From positions 7,140,001-7,204,000 of the forward strand of contig CP069300.1 of NCBI GenBank assembly GCA_016839165.1: 64,000 bases of DNA. The letters are read 5' to 3'. The notes below the pieces were generated by a model that saw nothing but the letters and a program-made list of their open reading frames with translations, was not told the DNA's origin and searched no databases. The stretch comes from Bradyrhizobium sp. PSBB068 (lineage in GTDB: Bacteria; Pseudomonadota; Alphaproteobacteria; Rhizobiales; Xanthobacteraceae). Position numbers and translations under genes: made by a program. This document shows positions 26,731 through 48,532 of this stretch, one piece after another (within the stretch, counting starts at the first letter, position 1; each line of letters opens with the position of its first letter).

Positions 26731-27567
26731 TCACTCCGACGGCCGCGCGCGCTGGCGGTCGTTATAGAGCTTCATCACGGCAGCGGCGGTTTCCTCGATC
26801 GAACGCCGCGTCACGTCGAGCAGCGCCCAGTTGAATTTCGCGCTCAGGCGCCGGGCAAAGGCGACCTCGTCCGCCACCGACTGCTTGTCGATATAGGTGT
26901 CGTTGTCGCGGTCGCCCATCGTGAGCAGGCGGTTCTGCCGGACCTGGATCAGGCGCTCGGGCGTCGCGTGCAGGCTGACCACCAGCGGCTTCTTCAGGGT
27001 CTCGAGCTGGTGCGGCAGCGGAATGCCCGGCACCAGCGGCACGTTTGCCGTCCTGATGCCGCGGTTGGCGAGATAGATCGAGGTCGGCGTCTTCGAGGTA
27101 CGCGACACCCCGACCAGCACCACATCGGCCTCCTCGAGGCCTTCGACATGCTGACCGTCGTCATGCATCATCGTGAAGTTCAGCGCATCGATGCGGGCGA
27201 AATATTCCGCGTTGAGCACGTGCTGCGCGCCGACCCGCCCGGTCGTCGCAGCACCCAGATACGCCTCGAACAATTGCATCACCGGCCCGATGATCGACAG
27301 GCTCGGAACGTTGATCTCCCTGCACTTGCCTTCGAGCCGTCCGACCAGGTCCTTCTCCAGCAGCGTGAACAGCACGATGCCGGGCGATTCCTCGATCTCG
27401 TCGAGCACGCGATCAAGCTGCTTCTGGCTACGCACCAGGGGATAGACATGCTCGACCGCGGTGACGTTGGCGTACTGCGCGGCGACCGCGCGCGCCACGG
27501 TGATCAGCGTCTCGCCGGTCGAGTCCGACACCAGATGGAGGTGGAAATAATTGGATGTCGTCGGCAC
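26731..27567 (-). CDS. ppsR: PPDK/PEP synthetase regulatory protein (kinase/pyrophosphorylase)
   Basis: A 278-residue DUF299 family protein. The N-terminus [14 protein letters not shown] and the P-loop-like [18 protein letters not shown] near residue 150 are family signatures. It reversibly phosphorylates pyruvate phosphate dikinase or PEP synthetase. Its start lies at the left border of the proposed replication origin, as its homologue does in Caulobacter. Confidence 0.94.
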
Positions 27568-28028
27568 CAGAGCCCCTGTCTATCCTGTGAATCCCTGTGG
27601 AGGTCGAGGAGAAGATTCCGGGTCCGCCGCCAGGTCCCTGTATATCTCGTCCCCTTCTTCACAGCACCGCCGAAAAGGATAAGTCGACGTCATCGCACAG
27701 ATGATAGTGAACCGGTGTGGATTTGTCTCTTCATAAGCTGGCCACAGAGGTCCGCAACAGATTGAGTTGAGGGATAGATTCCGGATAACGGCCGCCGCCG
27801 GCCTGAATGTTGAGGGATGTGAACAAGCCCGCAAGAACGGCTGGATCGTATTGCATGAGTCAAATTCACCGCCACTAAGACTCAAACCTTAGATTCTAAA
27901 ATTAATTAGGTTTAGGAGAGCCGTGTGTGCGGATATGTATCCGTCCCTCGCTTGCAAAGCTTAGTTCGCAACGCCGAGGCTGTCCGAGCTGTTTCCCGCC
28001 GAGCTGTTCCCTGAAAGGCATCGCTGCG
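27568..28028. other. Candidate chromosomal replication origin (oriC)
   Basis: A 461-base gene-free gap between divergent ppsR and hemJ. It holds an AT-rich block (about 27861-27920) in an otherwise GC-rich region. DnaA-box-like sites within one mismatch of the consensus are at 27655-27663 (TTCTTCACA) and 27818-27826 (TGTGAACAA); weaker ones are at 27586 and 27716. Six GANTC (CcrM) sites occur at 27589, 27614, 27777, 27857, 27879 and 27892. AAACCT at 27884 pairs with AGGTTT at 27908. The surrounding order (secB, dnaQ, coaE, maf, ppsR | hemJ, rho, mnmE, mnmG, rsmG, parA, parB, holA) is that flanking the Caulobacter origin. Genes diverge from the gap. The function is inferred. Confidence 0.75.
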
Positions 28029-28454
28029 ATGTTGTACGACTGGATCAAGGCGCTGCACGTGATTGCCGTCATCTCATGGATGGCCGGAATGCTCTATCTG
28101 CCGCGGCTGTTCGTCTATCATTGCGAGGCCGAGGCCGGCTCGAAGCAGTCCGAGACCTTCAAGGTCATGGAACGGCGGCTTTTGCGGGCGATCATCAACC
28201 CCGCGATGATCGTGACCTGGCTTGCCGGGCTTTATCTGGCCTGGGCCGGACACTGGTACCTATCGGGCTGGTTTCACGTCAAATTTGCGTTGGTGCTCGC
28301 CATGTCGGGTATCCACGGCTTTTTGTCTCGCTGCGTGAAGGACTTCGCCGCGGACCGGAATCAGCGAACCCAGAAATTCTACCGCATTATCAATGAGGTG
28401 CCGACGCTTCTGATGATCCTGATCGTGATCATGGTGGTCGTGAAGCCGTTCTAG
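28029..28454 (+). CDS. hemJ: Protoporphyrinogen oxidase HemJ
   Basis: A 141-residue integral membrane protein with four predicted helices. The ATG at 28029 starts at MLYDWIKALHVIAVISW, the family signature with a conserved His. A second conserved motif is FHVKFALVLAMSGIHG. HemJ oxidises protoporphyrinogen IX in the penultimate step of heme synthesis. In many alphaproteobacteria hemE lies beside it at the origin; here hemE is absent and hemJ borders the gap directly. A palindrome TTAGATTCTAA at 27889 upstream could be an Irr-type iron-control element, as an alternative to an origin motif. Confidence 0.9.
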   Translation: MLYDWIKALHVIAVISWMAGMLYLPRLFVYHCEAEAGSKQSETFKVMERRLLRAIINPAMIVTWLAGLYLAWAGHWYLSGWFHVKFALVLAMSGIHGFLSRCVKDFAADRNQRTQKFYRIINEVPTLLMILIVIMVVVKPF

Positions 28455-28490
28455 ACATTGCGATGCCCAAGAAGCATGCTTCAGTCCTTC

Positions 28491-28519
28491 TTGCGAAGGA
28501 CGGATCGATTTTCTATATA
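28491..28519 (+). promoter_or_regulatory. Sigma-70-type promoter candidate for rho
   Basis: TTGCGA at 28491-28496, a 17-base spacer, and TATATA at 28514-28519. The spacing is optimal and the -10 element stands out in this GC-rich sequence. It would leave a leader of about 180 bases before the rho ATG at 28706. No gene is present in 28455-28705. Confidence 0.6.
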
Positions 28520-28705
28520 GGTTTTATCCCACCCCACGCAGGCGGATGTGGTCGCGTTTCGGTTCTTTTCGGGCCGGCGCCGCATCAGGTTTGAAAGCCC
28601 AAACGGCACTTTCCTGGCTGAGACCTGCGGACCTTCCTTTGGCGTCCGCTTTTTCCAAGCCACCTCGCACCCCTTCCCTACTTACTTCCTCACAGGACGA
28701 CCCCG

Positions 28706-31611: not shown

Positions 31612-31627
31612 TGTTTCACGTTAAACA
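31612..31627. promoter_or_regulatory. parS-like site 1
   Basis: TGTTTCACGTTAAACA, one mismatch to the ParB consensus TGTTTCACGTGAAACA. It lies 12 bases after mnmE. Confidence 0.75.
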
Positions 31628-31656
31628 TGGTTTCGGATTGGTTAACTCGCCTCCCG

Positions 31657-31672
31657 CGTTTCACGTGAAACA
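31657..31672. promoter_or_regulatory. parS-like site 2
   Basis: CGTTTCACGTGAAACA, one mismatch (first base) to the ParB consensus. A degenerate CACGTG-centred copy follows at about 31676-31691. Confidence 0.85.
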
Positions 31673-31694
31673 TTGGGCTTCACGTGACCGCGCT

Positions 31695-31710
31695 TGTTTC
31701 ACGTGAAACA
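31695..31710. promoter_or_regulatory. parS site 3 (exact consensus)
   Basis: TGTTTCACGTGAAACA, an exact match to the 16-base palindrome bound by ParB. It is about 3.7 kb from the proposed origin and 3.9 kb before parB. Confidence 0.93.
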
Positions 31711-33717: not shown

Positions 33718-33733
33718 CGTTTCACGTGAAACA
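33718..33733. promoter_or_regulatory. parS-like site 4
   Basis: CGTTTCACGTGAAACA begins one base after the mnmG stop codon and differs from the ParB consensus only at the first base. Confidence 0.85.
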
Positions 33734-33747
33734 GCGCGGCCTCACGC

Positions 33748-33865
33748 CGTCACTGCGAGGAGCGAAGCGACGAAGCAATCCATGTCTGCGCGAGCTGTGA
33801 GATGGATCGCTTCGTGGAGCCTGTCATCGGGGAGCCTAAGCGCGACCCGTTGGCTCGCAATGACG
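33748..33865. repeat. Paired inverted repeat (CGTCATTGCGAGC family, copy 2)
   Basis: The left arm is CGTCACTGCGAGGAGCGAAG then CAATCCATG. The right arm has GGATCGCTTCGTGGAGCC, an inserted stretch, and CTCGCAATGACG. It separates mnmG/parS from rsmG and supplies the codons upstream of the chosen rsmG start. Confidence 0.75.
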
Positions 33866-33889
33866 AACACCAACCTGGCATTCAAGAGA

Positions 33890-34555
33890 ATGGCTTCAAT
33901 TTCCCGTTCCGCAGACCTCGAAATCTCCGCAGCTGACAAAGCCGCGGCACTCGCGCTGACTCCTGTTTCACGTGAAACGGAAGCCCGGCTCGATCGCTAC
34001 GTCGCTCTCCTGCTGGAGTGGCAGGCCAAGACCAATCTCGTCGCGCCGTCCACGCTGCCGAATCTCTGGACCCGCCACATCTCCGATTCGCTTCAGCTCC
34101 TGAGTCTCGCGCCGACGGCGAAGTCCTGGGTCGATCTCGGCAGCGGCGGCGGCTTCCCCGGCGTCGTGCTTGCCTGTGCATTGGCTGAGACGCCTGGCGC
34201 GTCCATCCACTTGGTTGAGCGAATTGCCAAAAAAGCTGCGTTCCTGCGTGAGGCTGTCCGCGTCACGGCGTCGCCTGGGACGGTGCATCTGGCTGATATC
34301 GGGGATACTGTGGATAGAATCGCGGGGCCCATCGATTGCGTCACCGCACGGGCGCTGGCTCCGTTACATCAACTCATCGGCTTTGCGGAGCCGTGGGTCA
34401 AAAAGGGCGCCAAGGCGCTGTTTTTGAAGGGTCAAGATGTAGAGGCCGAATTGACCGAGGCCACTAAATATTGGACTATTGAGCCAAAGCTACACGCCAG
34501 CCGGACCGGCGGACAGGGCTGGATCGTCGAACTCGGGTCAATCGAGCGGCGCTAG
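33890..34555 (+). CDS. rsmG: RsmG, 16S rRNA (guanine-527-N7)-methyltransferase
   Basis: A 221-residue SAM methyltransferase. The ATG at 33890 is chosen because upstream in-frame codons lie in a genomic repeat. The SAM-binding motif VDLGSGGGFPGVVLA lies near residue 83. The N-terminal residues around LTPVSRETEARL are encoded by a parS sequence, so this segment has both protein and DNA-site functions. Loss of RsmG is known to give low-level streptomycin resistance. The gene precedes parA by 31 bases. Confidence 0.95.
   Translation: MASISRSADLEISAADKAAALALTPVSRETEARLDRYVALLLEWQAKTNLVAPSTLPNLWTRHISDSLQLLSLAPTAKSWVDLGSGGGFPGVVLACALAETPGASIHLVERIAKKAAFLREAVRVTASPGTVHLADIGDTVDRIAGPIDCVTARALAPLHQLIGFAEPWVKKGAKALFLKGQDVEAELTEATKYWTIEPKLHASRTGGQGWIVELGSIERR
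33964..33979. promoter_or_regulatory. parS-like site 5, inside rsmG
   Basis: TGTTTCACGTGAAACG differs from the ParB consensus only at the last base. It is read in frame as the Val-Ser-Arg-Glu-Thr codons of rsmG. Confidence 0.85.
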
Positions 34556-34586
34556 GGGACTCCGCAAGAGCAAATGGTATTTTGGT

Positions 34587-35438
34587 ATGACTGTGATGGA
34601 CGAGGTTTATCAAGGGGATAAGGCGCTCCAAGCGCCGGGCCATCCGCGCATCCTGTCGCTCGCCAACCAGAAGGGGGGCGTCGGCAAGACCACCACAGCG
34701 ATCAATCTTGGGACCGCACTCGCTGCGATTGGCGAGCGCGTCCTGATCGTCGATCTCGATCCGCAGGGCAACGCCTCGACCGGTCTCGGCATCGATCGCC
34801 GCAACCGCAGCTGCTCGACCTACGACGTGCTGATCGGCGAAGCGCCGCTGCGCGATGCCGTAGTCGCGACCGCAGTGCCGCGGCTGCACATTGCGGCATC
34901 CACCATGGATCTCTCCGGTCTCGAGCTCGAGCTCGGCACCACGCCGGGCCGTGCCTTCCGGTTGCGCGACGCGATCGCAGGATTGAACAACAACGTCTCG
35001 CCGGACTCCGATTACACCTACGTGCTGATCGACTGCCCGCCCTCGCTCAATCTGCTTACCGTCAATGCGATGGCCGCGTCGGACGCGATCCTGGTGCCGT
35101 TGCAATGCGAGTTCTTCGCGCTCGAAGGTCTGTCGCAATTGCTGCAGACGGTGGAGCAGGTGCGCTCGACGCTCAATCCGACCCTGTCGATCCACGGCAT
35201 CGTGCTGACCATGTTCGACTCGCGCAACAACCTCTCCAACCAGGTGGTTGCCGACGTGCGCCAGTTCATGGGCAACAAGGTCTATGACACCATGATCCCA
35301 CGCAACGTGCGGATCTCGGAAGCGCCGTCCTACGGCAAGCCGGTGCTGGTTTACGATCTCAAATGCGCCGGCAGCGACGCGTATCTCAAGCTTGCCACCG
35401 AAGTGATCCAGCGCGAGCGCGAGCTGCGCGCGCATTGA
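34587..35438 (+). CDS. parA: Chromosome partitioning ATPase ParA
   Basis: A 283-residue deviant Walker ATPase. The deviant P-loop KGGVGKTT lies near residue 30. DLDPQGNAS and VLIDCPPSLNLLT are the remaining nucleotide motifs, and NVRISEAPSYGKPV is typical of chromosomal ParA/Soj. It forms a gradient that moves ParB-parS complexes. The ATG at 34587 is 31 bases after rsmG; another ATG nine bases later is possible. Confidence 0.97.
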   Translation: MTVMDEVYQGDKALQAPGHPRILSLANQKGGVGKTTTAINLGTALAAIGERVLIVDLDPQGNASTGLGIDRRNRSCSTYDVLIGEAPLRDAVVATAVPRLHIAASTMDLSGLELELGTTPGRAFRLRDAIAGLNNNVSPDSDYTYVLIDCPPSLNLLTVNAMAASDAILVPLQCEFFALEGLSQLLQTVEQVRSTLNPTLSIHGIVLTMFDSRNNLSNQVVADVRQFMGNKVYDTMIPRNVRISEAPSYGKPVLVYDLKCAGSDAYLKLATEVIQRERELRAH

Positions 35439-35446
35439 GGGCGATG

Positions 35447-35528
35447 TGTAGGATGGGTGGAGCGAAGCGATACCCATCGCGGCACTGAACGAGAATGATG
35501 GGTTTCGCTGCGCTCTGCCCATCCTACA
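35447..35528. repeat. Inverted repeat TGTAGGATGGGT family
   Basis: TGTAGGATGGGTGGAGCGAA and TTCGCTGCGCTCTGCCCATC then CTACA form the two arms, with CGATACCCATC and GATGGGTTTCG pairing inside. The element lies between parA and parB, so the two genes are probably transcribed through a strong hairpin. This may set their relative expression. Confidence 0.8.
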
Positions 35529-35582
35529 ATCCAGATATCGAAGTTCGGAGTACTGCGTGTGAATCCAAGGGAGCTCGCAACA

Positions 35583-36473
35583 ATGGCCGATGAAGCGCGT
35601 TCGCGACTGGGGCGCGGGCTGGCAAGCCTGATCGGAGACGTCGGCGGCGAGGCGGCCGCGCATGTCGAGCGGCCGCGCACGCAGCGCAAGGTGCCGATCG
35701 AATTCCTCAAACCCAACCCGCGCAATCCGCGGCGCAGCTTCGCCGATGCCGAGCTCGGCGAACTTGCCGATTCGATCAAGGCGCGCGGCGTGATCCAGCC
35801 GATCGTGGTGCGCGCGATCAAGGGCGCGCAGGACCGTTTCGAGATCATCGCCGGCGAACGGCGCTGGCGTGCCTCGCAGCTTGCCGGTCTGCATGAAGTG
35901 CCGATCGTGCCGGTCGAGGTCTCCGATTCCGACGCGCTCGAGATCATGATCATCGAGAACGTCCAGCGCGAAGACCTCAACGCGATGGAAGAGGCGCTGG
36001 GCTATCACGCGCTCGCCGACGAGTTCAAACGCAGCCAGGAAGAGATCGCCAAGATCGTCGGCAAGAGCCGCAGCCATGTCGCCAACATGATGCGGCTGAC
36101 CAAATTGCCGAGCGAGGTGCAGGCGCTGATCTCCAAGGGCGATCTCTCCGCCGGCCACGCCCGTGCGCTGATCGGCGTGCCGGATCCGCTGGCTGCCGCC
36201 AAGCGCATCGTTGCCGAGGGCCTCAACGTCCGCCAGGCCGAGGCGCTGGCGCATGAGGAGGGCGTGCCGGAGCGCAAGCCGCAGAAGGCGCGTTCTGGCA
36301 GCGCGGCCAAGGTCGACAAGGATGCCGATACGCTGGCGCTGGAGAAGCGCGTCAGCGATGCGCTCGGCCTCGCCGTCACCGTCAGCCATCGTGATCCCGG
36401 CGGCACCGTGCAGATCAACTACCGCAACCTCGAGCAGCTCGACGAAGTGGTGCGGCGGCTCGAGGGCGGTTAG
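35583..36473 (+). CDS. parB: Chromosome partitioning protein ParB
   Basis: A 296-residue CTPase and parS-binding protein. The ATG at 35583 has AAGGGAG at good distance and is preferred to the GTG at 35559. The N-terminus holds LGRGLASLIGD, the ParA-stimulating type of helix. The CTP-binding motif is GERRWRASQ. IENVQREDLNAMEEA and the helix-turn-helix GKSRSHVANMMRL follow. The C-terminal dimerisation domain ends LEQLDEVVRRL. Its target sites are at 31612-33979. Confidence 0.97.
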   Translation: MADEARSRLGRGLASLIGDVGGEAAAHVERPRTQRKVPIEFLKPNPRNPRRSFADAELGELADSIKARGVIQPIVVRAIKGAQDRFEIIAGERRWRASQLAGLHEVPIVPVEVSDSDALEIMIIENVQREDLNAMEEALGYHALADEFKRSQEEIAKIVGKSRSHVANMMRLTKLPSEVQALISKGDLSAGHARALIGVPDPLAAAKRIVAEGLNVRQAEALAHEEGVPERKPQKARSGSAAKVDKDADTLALEKRVSDALGLAVTVSHRDPGGTVQINYRNLEQLDEVVRRLEGG

Positions 36474-46763: not shown

Positions 46764-46806
46764 GATGCGGATTGTCTGTACGCCGTCAGTAAACCCGTCA
46801 TCCTGA

Positions 46807-48322
46807 CAGCTTGTGAAGCTTTCGGGTTTTGCCTTTTACGTCTGTAGGTCGGGTGGGTTTGGTTTTTTGCGCAGCTGCGGCCGGGTGGCCGATGTGGTGT
46901 TTAAGCGCTGTAGAGCCGATGCCCTTGTAAGACGTTGTTGGTGAGGGCGAACCAGAGCGCGACGGCACGGACCTTTTCAAGGCCGCGTACGGTGAGTTGC
47001 CGCAGGCCCCAGTTGCGCCATCGAGCGTGGATGCACTCGCAGATCGATCGGAGCTTGTACTGGGCCTTGCCCGGCTCGCTTGCCATCCGTGCCCGCCAAG
47101 CCAACACGCCCGGGCCGTCGCCGCGCCGCGGCAGGTAGGGATCGGTACCGTGCTTGGATTGCGTGGGCGGACAATAGACCTCAACCCCTTGATCATGCGC
47201 CCACTCGATGTCCTCGGCACTGCCAAAGCCGCCATCAACGAGATGGCGGCCCGGAAGGCGGCCGGTCCGCGCGCGCAAGCGATCTAGCATTGGCTGCATG
47301 AGGCCGCGATCGGAACCAATATTGGTCACGTCGAGCCCGGCCACGATCTGCTCGCCGGCCGCGCTCGCCACCTGCACATTGTATCCTGGCCGGAAGCCGC
47401 CGTCGGCCATCTTCATGACGCGGGCGTCGGGGTCCGTCGTAGAGGCGCGCGGCTCCTTCGGCGTCTTGCCGTTGTTGCGCTTGTCTTCGCGCGCCTGGCG
47501 CTGCCGCTTGATCTCGGCGAGCGCGGCCTGCGCTGCCTTCAGGCGTTCGGTGCGCTCACGCGCCGCTCGCTCCTTGGCCGCCTTGATGCGCTGGTTGCTG
47601 GCATCGGAGCGCGCCTCGACCTCGCGTTTGAGCTCCGCCACGATCGTCTGCGCGGTCTCCAAATGGTGATCGAGTGTCTGTTCTCGCCGGAACGAGGCGG
47701 CCCCGGCGCTCGCCCGGATCCGCACGCCGTCCTGCGCCAGCTTGCTGAGGTCGACCAGGCCCACCTCCGCCAAGGCCGCAAGATGTTCGGCGAGCAGCCG
47801 ATCGAGCAGATCGGCGCATCCGACCCGGAAGTCCGCCAGCGTATGGTAGTTCACCGAGACCCCGCCACACAGCCAGCGATAGACATCGTGGCTCTCGCAC
47901 AGCCGCTCCAGGGCGCGAGCGCTTCCTACCCCGTCGCTGGTCGCATAGAGCCACAGTGCCAGCAAAAGCCGTGGCGACGTCGCCGGATGACCCGGCCTCT
48001 CGCCCCGCGCCTTGATCCGATCTTCAAGCTCGCGCAGCTCGAGCCCGTCGACATAGCACCAGATCACCCGCGCCGGATGATCTTCCCCGATCAGGCTATC
48101 GATATCCACCGCCCGCAGTTCAATCTGATCGCGCTGCGGCTCGCGCAGACGCGGCAAACCCGCTGGCGCCGCATCAGTTTGCGGCTTCGGCTGCTCCGGC
48201 AGTTCTCCAAACAGCTGGTCTTCAGCCATCTCCCGCTCTCCCGCAATTCAGCGATTGCAGGGAATCACATCCCCCATCCCTCCCGCTACATCTTTCGCCC
48301 AAGCCACAAAAATTCACACGCT
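46807..48322 (-). mobile_element. Insertion sequence of the IS1182 type, about 1.5 kb, complete
   Basis: The element is bounded by imperfect inverted repeats: the left end CAGCTTGTGAAGCTTT matches the reverse complement of the right end AGCGTGTGAATTTTTG in AGC, TGTGAA and TTT. CTGA flanks it on both sides (46803-46806 and 48323-48326), a 4-base target duplication. One base of ambiguity exists at each end. It carries a single intact transposase gene and has landed inside a genomic repeat. Confidence 0.85.
46901..48229 (-). CDS. IS1182 family transposase
   Basis: A 442-residue DDE transposase, uninterrupted. The N-terminal helical domain (ELRAVDIDSLIGEDHPARVIW, then SPRLLLALWLYA) precedes a coiled, Arg/Glu-rich insertion (about residues 185-265). 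Acidic catalytic residues are plausible in LAQDGVRIRA, LVDGGFGSAEDIE and the late Glu near CECIHARW. It mobilises the surrounding element. The intact frame and clean ends suggest a recent insertion. Confidence 0.9.
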   Translation of the reverse strand: MAEDQLFGELPEQPKPQTDAAPAGLPRLREPQRDQIELRAVDIDSLIGEDHPARVIWCYVDGLELRELEDRIKARGERPGHPATSPRLLLALWLYATSDGVGSARALERLCESHDVYRWLCGGVSVNYHTLADFRVGCADLLDRLLAEHLAALAEVGLVDLSKLAQDGVRIRASAGAASFRREQTLDHHLETAQTIVAELKREVEARSDASNQRIKAAKERAARERTERLKAAQAALAEIKRQRQAREDKRNNGKTPKEPRASTTDPDARVMKMADGGFRPGYNVQVASAAGEQIVAGLDVTNIGSDRGLMQPMLDRLRARTGRLPGRHLVDGGFGSAEDIEWAHDQGVEVYCPPTQSKHGTDPYLPRRGDGPGVLAWRARMASEPGKAQYKLRSICECIHARWRNWGLRQLTVRGLEKVRAVALWFALTNNVLQGHRLYSA

Positions 48323-48532
48323 CTGAGGAGCGCGTCTCGAAGGGGCGACGGCCCTGCTGATGGCCGTGCATCCTTCGAGACGCCGCTTCGCGGCTCCTCA
48401 AGATGACGGGTTAGACACGCCGCGCCGCTTCGCTCGACGGCACAGGTGAATTCCATTCATCTCCGTTGAAGACAAACCTTTTGTCGCCGCACCTGCCTCC
48501 CGGCACTCTCCGTCCAAAGCGGAGAGCACGCG

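Follow-up and report, generated by a model that had tools for sequence, protein, structure and literature searches.

The intergenic region between ppsR and hemJ is very probably the chromosomal replication origin (oriC) of this Bradyrhizobium, a function that we infer from sequence comparisons. It would be an origin of the alphaproteobacterial, Caulobacter type, with hemE removed from one of its edges. The original prediction had placed oriC here, and several observations argue for that reading: the position of the gap is orthologous across the order, its sequence is conserved throughout the genus, it carries DnaA-like boxes, GANTC sites and an AT-rich core while conserved boxes are absent from five neighbouring regions, parS sites and parAB lie nearby, and the GC skew changes sign close to it once a recent inversion is undone.

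Gene order at the edges of the gap

The window, i.e. the whole 64,000-nucleotide stretch of DNA analysed here, corresponds to C1:7140001-7204000 of a complete assembly made up of C1 (7,537,887 bp) and a second contig. As had been proposed, the gap contains no gene and the neighbouring genes diverge from it, four on the minus strand to the left (dnaQ, coaE, maf and ppsR) and seven on the plus strand to the right (hemJ, rho, mnmE, gidA, gidB, parA and parB). The PpsR protein is 97-98% identical to PpsR of named Bradyrhizobium (tropiciagri, embrapense, macuxiense and others). The coordinates of all features are collected in the table.

Table. Features of the putative origin region (window positions unless C1 is given; ".", no strand assigned)
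Feature	Position	Strand	Remarks
Putative oriC, ppsR-hemJ intergenic region	27568..28028	.	461 bp, gene-free
ppsR (DUF299/PEP synthase regulator family)	26731..27567	-	left border gene; NF003742 above cut-off
hemJ	28029..28454	+	right border gene (hemE lost from between); TIGR00701 above cut-off
DnaA-like box TTCTTCACA	27655..27663	+	at most one mismatch to TTATNCACA in 97% of 79 aligned gaps
DnaA-like box TTGTTCACA	27818..27826	-	at most one mismatch to TTATNCACA in 91% of 79 aligned gaps
Weak DnaA-like box GGATTCACA	27586..27594	-	conserved block at ppsR edge; at most two mismatches in 82% of 79 gaps
Weak DnaA-like box AAATCCACA	27716..27724	-	two mismatches to TTATCCACA; block largely conserved; below 80% conservation threshold
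Weak DnaA-like box ATATCCGCA	27928..27936	-	two mismatches; block largely conserved; below 80% conservation threshold
Conserved core	27808..27943	.	one box, AT-rich stretch and three GANTC sites; mean identity to window 75% (78 relatives)
GANTC (CcrM-type) cluster, six sites	27589..27896	.	27589, 27614, 27777, 27857, 27879, 27892; spans 308 bp
Short inverted repeat CTAAG-N8-CTTAG	27875..27892	.	AT-rich core; arms CTAAG 27875-27879, CTTAG 27888-27892
Short inverted repeat AAACCT / AGGTTT	27884-27889 / 27908-27913		AT-rich core
Three parS-like sites between mnmE and gidA	31612..31710	.	one exact, two with one mismatch; where Ori-Finder would place oriC
Two parS-like sites after gidA	33718..33979	.	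one mismatch each
parA and parB	34479..36473	+	Pfam AAA_31; ParB_N/HTH_ParB/ParB_C
IS element (DDE transposase)	46795-48379	-	boundary of the block with the putative origin; inverted copy, 98.9% identical, at C1:7380986-7382579

The Cori of Caulobacter crescentus is the interval between hemE and COG1806/DUF299, and the set of origin sites named in the same paper includes CtrA sites (PMC1914354). The resemblance of gene order noted in the original prediction is real on one side, as the ppsR/DUF299 border is shared while the hemE edge has changed. Like Cori, the gap is AT-rich, has DnaA boxes and is flanked by the DUF299 gene, with a parAB cluster and CcrM-type sites nearby; unlike Cori, it has hemJ in place of hemE, lacks a canonical CtrA or IHF site, and its boxes are fewer and off consensus. 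Two full-score copies of hemE are present in the genome (C1:1243067-1244068 and 1594424-1595428, at 1.24 and 1.59 Mb), neither of them at the origin edge, and aroE, which is indeed missing from the maf-coaE interval, occurs at 5.98 and 0.04 Mb of the contig.

Comparison with other genomes of the order bore out the claim that both edges have been rearranged. A search of 120 order genomes yielded PpsR in 105, and hemJ and hemE were sought in 62 of the PpsR-bearing ones, drawn from many families and including one genome from the window's own family. In 60 of the 62, ppsR and hemE point away from each other across a gap of 383-605 bp, and in 59 hemE and hemJ are neighbours, so that the ppsR-hemJ gap keeps positional orthology with the ppsR-hemE gap. 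The exceptions were contig breaks in G152 and G232, and G161, a genome from outside the window's family in which hemJ lies beside the ppsR gap and hemE is on another contig (contigs C95, C73); in the latter, hemE probably left the origin edge independently. For aroE, 15 of 17 order or family genomes have the gene within 2 kb of ppsR and the remaining two have it on another contig, while it is not near ppsR in three Bradyrhizobium tested. Both hemE and aroE therefore left the edges of the gap in the window's lineage, and the length of the gap was kept. Origins of Wolbachia and Ehrlichia likewise retain the site with one flanking gene exchanged, but there COG1806 was replaced and hemE kept (PMC1914354), whereas here hemE is gone and ppsR kept.

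Conserved sites within the gap

Comparison with other Bradyrhizobium genomes, suggested with the original prediction, showed the gap to be conserved: its DNA finds a match in every one of the 147 genus genomes searched (its own and 146 others), and the weakest of these matches shrink to query positions ~240-336, or ~27807-27903 of the window. Eighty named loci were retrieved from Bradyrhizobium, Tardiphaga, Afipia, Rhodopseudomonas and unnamed relatives; two (L124 and L183) were dropped, and the 78 with enough upstream sequence were aligned to the window, giving 79 sequences in all. Mean identity of the 78 relatives to the window is 75% over the core and 61% over the whole gap. Gap lengths in Bradyrhizobium are mostly 440-480 bp.

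The gap is locally AT-rich, as had been noticed, with 46.4% AT versus 35.3% for the whole window, which places a gap-sized stretch (462 bp) in the top 0.7% of 548 kb of contiguous sequence. Its AT-richest 100 bp, starting at 27841, reach 60% AT (top 0.1% of the same 548 kb) and form a candidate unwinding stretch. The two predicted DnaA boxes within one mismatch are present. Both sites, at 27655 and 27818, were recovered with the looser consensus TTATNCACA, but the count depends on that choice, since the strict consensus TTATCCACA/TGATCCACA gives no box within one mismatch in the gap. It gives six within two mismatches. That the boxes are few and off consensus counts against the oriC reading.

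Boxes within one mismatch of TTATNCACA are nevertheless rare, with a chance rate of 0.05 per 461 bp in the sampled genome, and they are conserved. Among box windows kept in 80% or more of the 79 sequences, two were within one mismatch and four within two. In 300 column shuffles neither number was ever attained, a result that shows enrichment rather than a probability because relatedness is not modelled in the shuffles. The same scan found no conserved box in the hemJ-rho, rho-mnmE, mnmE-gidA, gidA-gidB and parA-parB regions (69-77 sequences each). In 20 distant ppsR-hemE gaps we counted 39 boxes within one mismatch, where letter shuffles led us to expect 6.4 and never gave more than 14 in 100 rounds; four of these gaps are box-free.

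All six predicted GANTC sites were present, while the background of the sampled genome is 0.77 per 462 bp. The sampling covered 2.02 Mb, or 27% of C1, in which only four GANTC clusters were as dense as that of the gap, the gap included. In this sample the gap alone combined two or more boxes (at most one mismatch to TTATNCACA) with five or more GANTC sites in 461 bp; relaxing the search to four GANTC sites added two further places. GANTC density in the 78 relatives' gaps is 4.7 per 460 bp versus 1.2 in the surrounding loci (about fourfold). Individual sites are conserved in the 79 gaps to different extents (27589, 68%; 27857, 71%; 27879, 92%; 27892, 99%). One of the three other dense clusters, eight GANTC sites in and around the gyrB-recF intergenic region (C1:7397590-7397915), is without DnaA-like boxes.

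A short inverted repeat had been described around the AT-rich core, and both CTAAG/CTTAG and AAACCT/AGGTTT are found there. The middle pair of the former varies between T-A and A-T; support from covariation is modest, as 32 of the 78 ungapped pairs at this position mismatch. The CtrA site TTAA-N7-TTAA was detected in none of the 79 gaps versus 7 of 20 distant order gaps, and the strict IHF motif WATCARNNNNTTR in none of the 79 versus 4 of the 20. The CtrA half-site TTAACC is present in 20 of the 79, the window's own gap not being among them. The lack of canonical CtrA and strict IHF sites, which the Caulobacter origin would lead one to expect, also counts against the oriC reading, and control of initiation may differ from that of Caulobacter. 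A search against Rfam gave nothing at gathering score in the 20-40 kb interval of the window, and a single match to a snoRNA, attributable to chance (E 1), in the 27.4-28.8 kb interval.

Such a region could also be a mere conserved divergent promoter for ppsR and hemJ, with transcription under CcrM control, given that it separates two divergent genes and that GANTC clusters occur at promoters too. Length and boxes were kept, however, when the neighbour changed between hemE and hemJ, and boxes are enriched in the distant gaps as well, which makes this explanation extremely unlikely.

The hemJ-rho intergenic region (28455-28705) is itself strongly conserved: over 77 sequences its mean identity is 75%, and 47% of the columns reach a conservation of 90% or more. 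This leader before rho ends in a GC-rich hairpin followed by T's, with compensatory types at 4 of 31 predicted pairs and no Rfam match, and is possibly a rho attenuator.

The parS cluster and the published origin of the family

A cluster of parS-like sites lies 3.6-6.0 kb from the gap, and the sole other site within one mismatch in the genome is at 3.2 Mb. The palindrome TGTTTCACGTGAAACA, a well-known parS sequence that is printed in papers on ParB, has TGTTTCACG as one of its halves. Its core was present in all 73 mnmE-gidA gaps and in 66 of 69 gidA-gidB gaps; none of the 79 ppsR-hemJ gaps contained it when they were searched for the TGTTTCACG motif.

It is in this cluster that the origin of the family has been placed. 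For Bradyrhizobiaceae, Ori-Finder suggested that TGTTTCACG serves as DnaA box and located the origins in ten genomes next to gidA, each with TGTTTCACGTGAAACA (PMC2275245); the genome paper of O. carboxidovorans followed this placement and reported four TGTTTCACG boxes (PMC3091675). This type of prediction (Ori-Finder/DoriC) points to the same few-kb neighbourhood as ours but to a different intergenic region, with parS rather than a DnaA box as its motif (PMC2275245). If oriC were the mnmE-gidA region, the ppsR-hemJ gap would be merely regulatory. Besides its publication record, this placement has in its favour a corrected skew minimum (see below) about equally near the gidA region and the gap. 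However, the "DnaA box" in question is half of parS, conserved at the core in 73 of 73 species, a ParB with DNA-binding domains is encoded next door, and the region, whose identity to the window is 40%, has no conserved DnaA-like box. We therefore rejected mnmE-gidA as the origin, for want of conserved boxes and presence of parS, and consider it very improbable. The site near gidA looks like a chromosome segregation site, not oriC.

In alphaproteobacteria parAB helps to anchor ori (PMC8116508), and origin calls made automatically can be wrong (PMC13342612). The main text of Ori-Finder 2022 mentions neither the motif nor the genus (PMC10225481). Among the papers listed in the literature searches, none was seen to describe an experimental Bradyrhizobium oriC or to identify TGTTTCACG as parS.

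GC skew, rearrangements and proposed initiation

Along the sampled chromosome the skew stays positive between 0 and ~3.55 Mb and is negative after ~3.6 Mb. Counts of the KOPS-like GGGNAGGG put the terminus near 3.5-3.6 Mb and are too sparse near the origin to be read there. At the contiguous end of the contig, the raw skew has its minimum at 7.528 Mb and a lesser one at 7.378 Mb, i.e. 210-360 kb from the gap. The lesser one lies near dnaA (7.400 Mb, minus strand), which is 233 kb from the gap, unlike in Caulobacter, where dnaA and the origin are a few kb apart. An origin at the dnaA-dnaN-recF-gyrB cluster would fit this turn of the raw skew, the GANTC cluster at gyrB-recF and two boxes upstream of dnaA. 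The gyrB-recF gap, however, has no box, and parS lies near the ppsR-hemJ gap, not near dnaA. Moreover, the skew turns at an IS copy (7.381 Mb), and the inverted twin of this copy marks the other end of an inverted segment.

The inversion was revealed by comparison with relatives. After blastn with stretches from five of them, blocks between 7.19 and 7.37 Mb appeared order-swapped and oppositely oriented in the window's genome. Among 49 low-contig relatives, chosen from the genomes with a match to the gap, 41 carry dnaA and the gap in the same orientation, with typical distances of 194-306 kb; the two are opposed in the other 8 and in the window's genome. Both IS copies are the ends of the out-of-place segment of 193 kb. 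As no clear target-site duplications were seen around the two copies, the inversion rests on block order and on the inverted copies. Once this segment was turned back (for counting only), the minimum moved to 7169968, or 29968 of the window, at a distance of 1.9 kb from the gap and 1.6 kb from the first parS. The same position resulted when all blocks were put in the order of the relatives. A skew minimum located elsewhere had been named beforehand as the result that would speak against the gap, and the raw minimum is indeed off the gap, but the corrected one lies within 2 kb of it.

The dip at 7.528 Mb ends at a tRNA-Arg gene (7527465-7527541); a direct repeat of 25 bp or more of this gene lies at 7454525. 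The 73 kb in between (C1:7454525-7527541), strongly negative in skew over its right two-thirds, is a probable integrated island that adds the second dip. The displacement of the skew minimum by 210-360 kb can be explained by an inversion bounded by near-identical inverted IS copies and by this probable island. Skew in the window's genome is weak, and cannot by itself separate the gap from gidA, 3.6 kb away, since the corrected minimum lies in the stretch from the gap to the parS cluster. Third-position and fourfold-site skew, taken per gene in up to 111 records, showed no clear step between gap and gidA either.

We also followed the skew in five relatives with dnaA set first (G002, G005, G007, G008 and G141). 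From dnaA to the gap it averaged -0.0113 (s.e. 0.0027), 13 of 15 stretches being negative, and beyond the gap +0.0033 (s.e. 0.0023), with 10 of 15 positive and 5 negative. An origin at dnaA predicts a positive dnaA-to-gap interval, whereas forks departing from the gap predict the sign observed. Stretches left of dnaA should be negative but are about zero (mean +0.0020, 6 of 10 positive), which may reflect local rearrangement. On the relatives' skew and the IS-bounded inversion, an origin at dnaA was rejected; we regard it as extremely improbable.

With the ppsR-hemJ gap as origin, DnaA would load on TT[CG]TTCACA and on the weaker boxes and open the AT-rich stretch 27841-27940, and forks would depart from the gap in both directions. 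Timing could be influenced by how the two most conserved GANTC sites, within the AT-rich stretch, are methylated, and ParB would gather at parS, 3.6-6.0 kb off, and move new origins apart. A broader proposal, possible but somewhat doubtful as a whole, is that the published origin of the family is misplaced, TGTTTCACG belonging to the ParB centromere, and that the true oriC of Bradyrhizobium would be the ppsR-hemJ gap, devoid of hemE and of canonical CtrA and IHF sites, with a TT[CG]TTCACA dialect of the DnaA box and a CcrM cluster in the AT-rich core that times initiation in these very slow growers.

The origin is of the expected, known alphaproteobacterial kind, with a changed border, and its analysis explains a misleading skew. 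That one IS-bounded inversion and one island can shift the skew minimum by 210-360 kb is a reason for caution when origins are called automatically. The locus used for the family would be corrected, as the earlier prediction appears to name a segregation site instead. This analysis provides a base-level candidate oriC for a major genus of nitrogen-fixing symbionts, in which initiation control without canonical CtrA and IHF sites becomes directly addressable.
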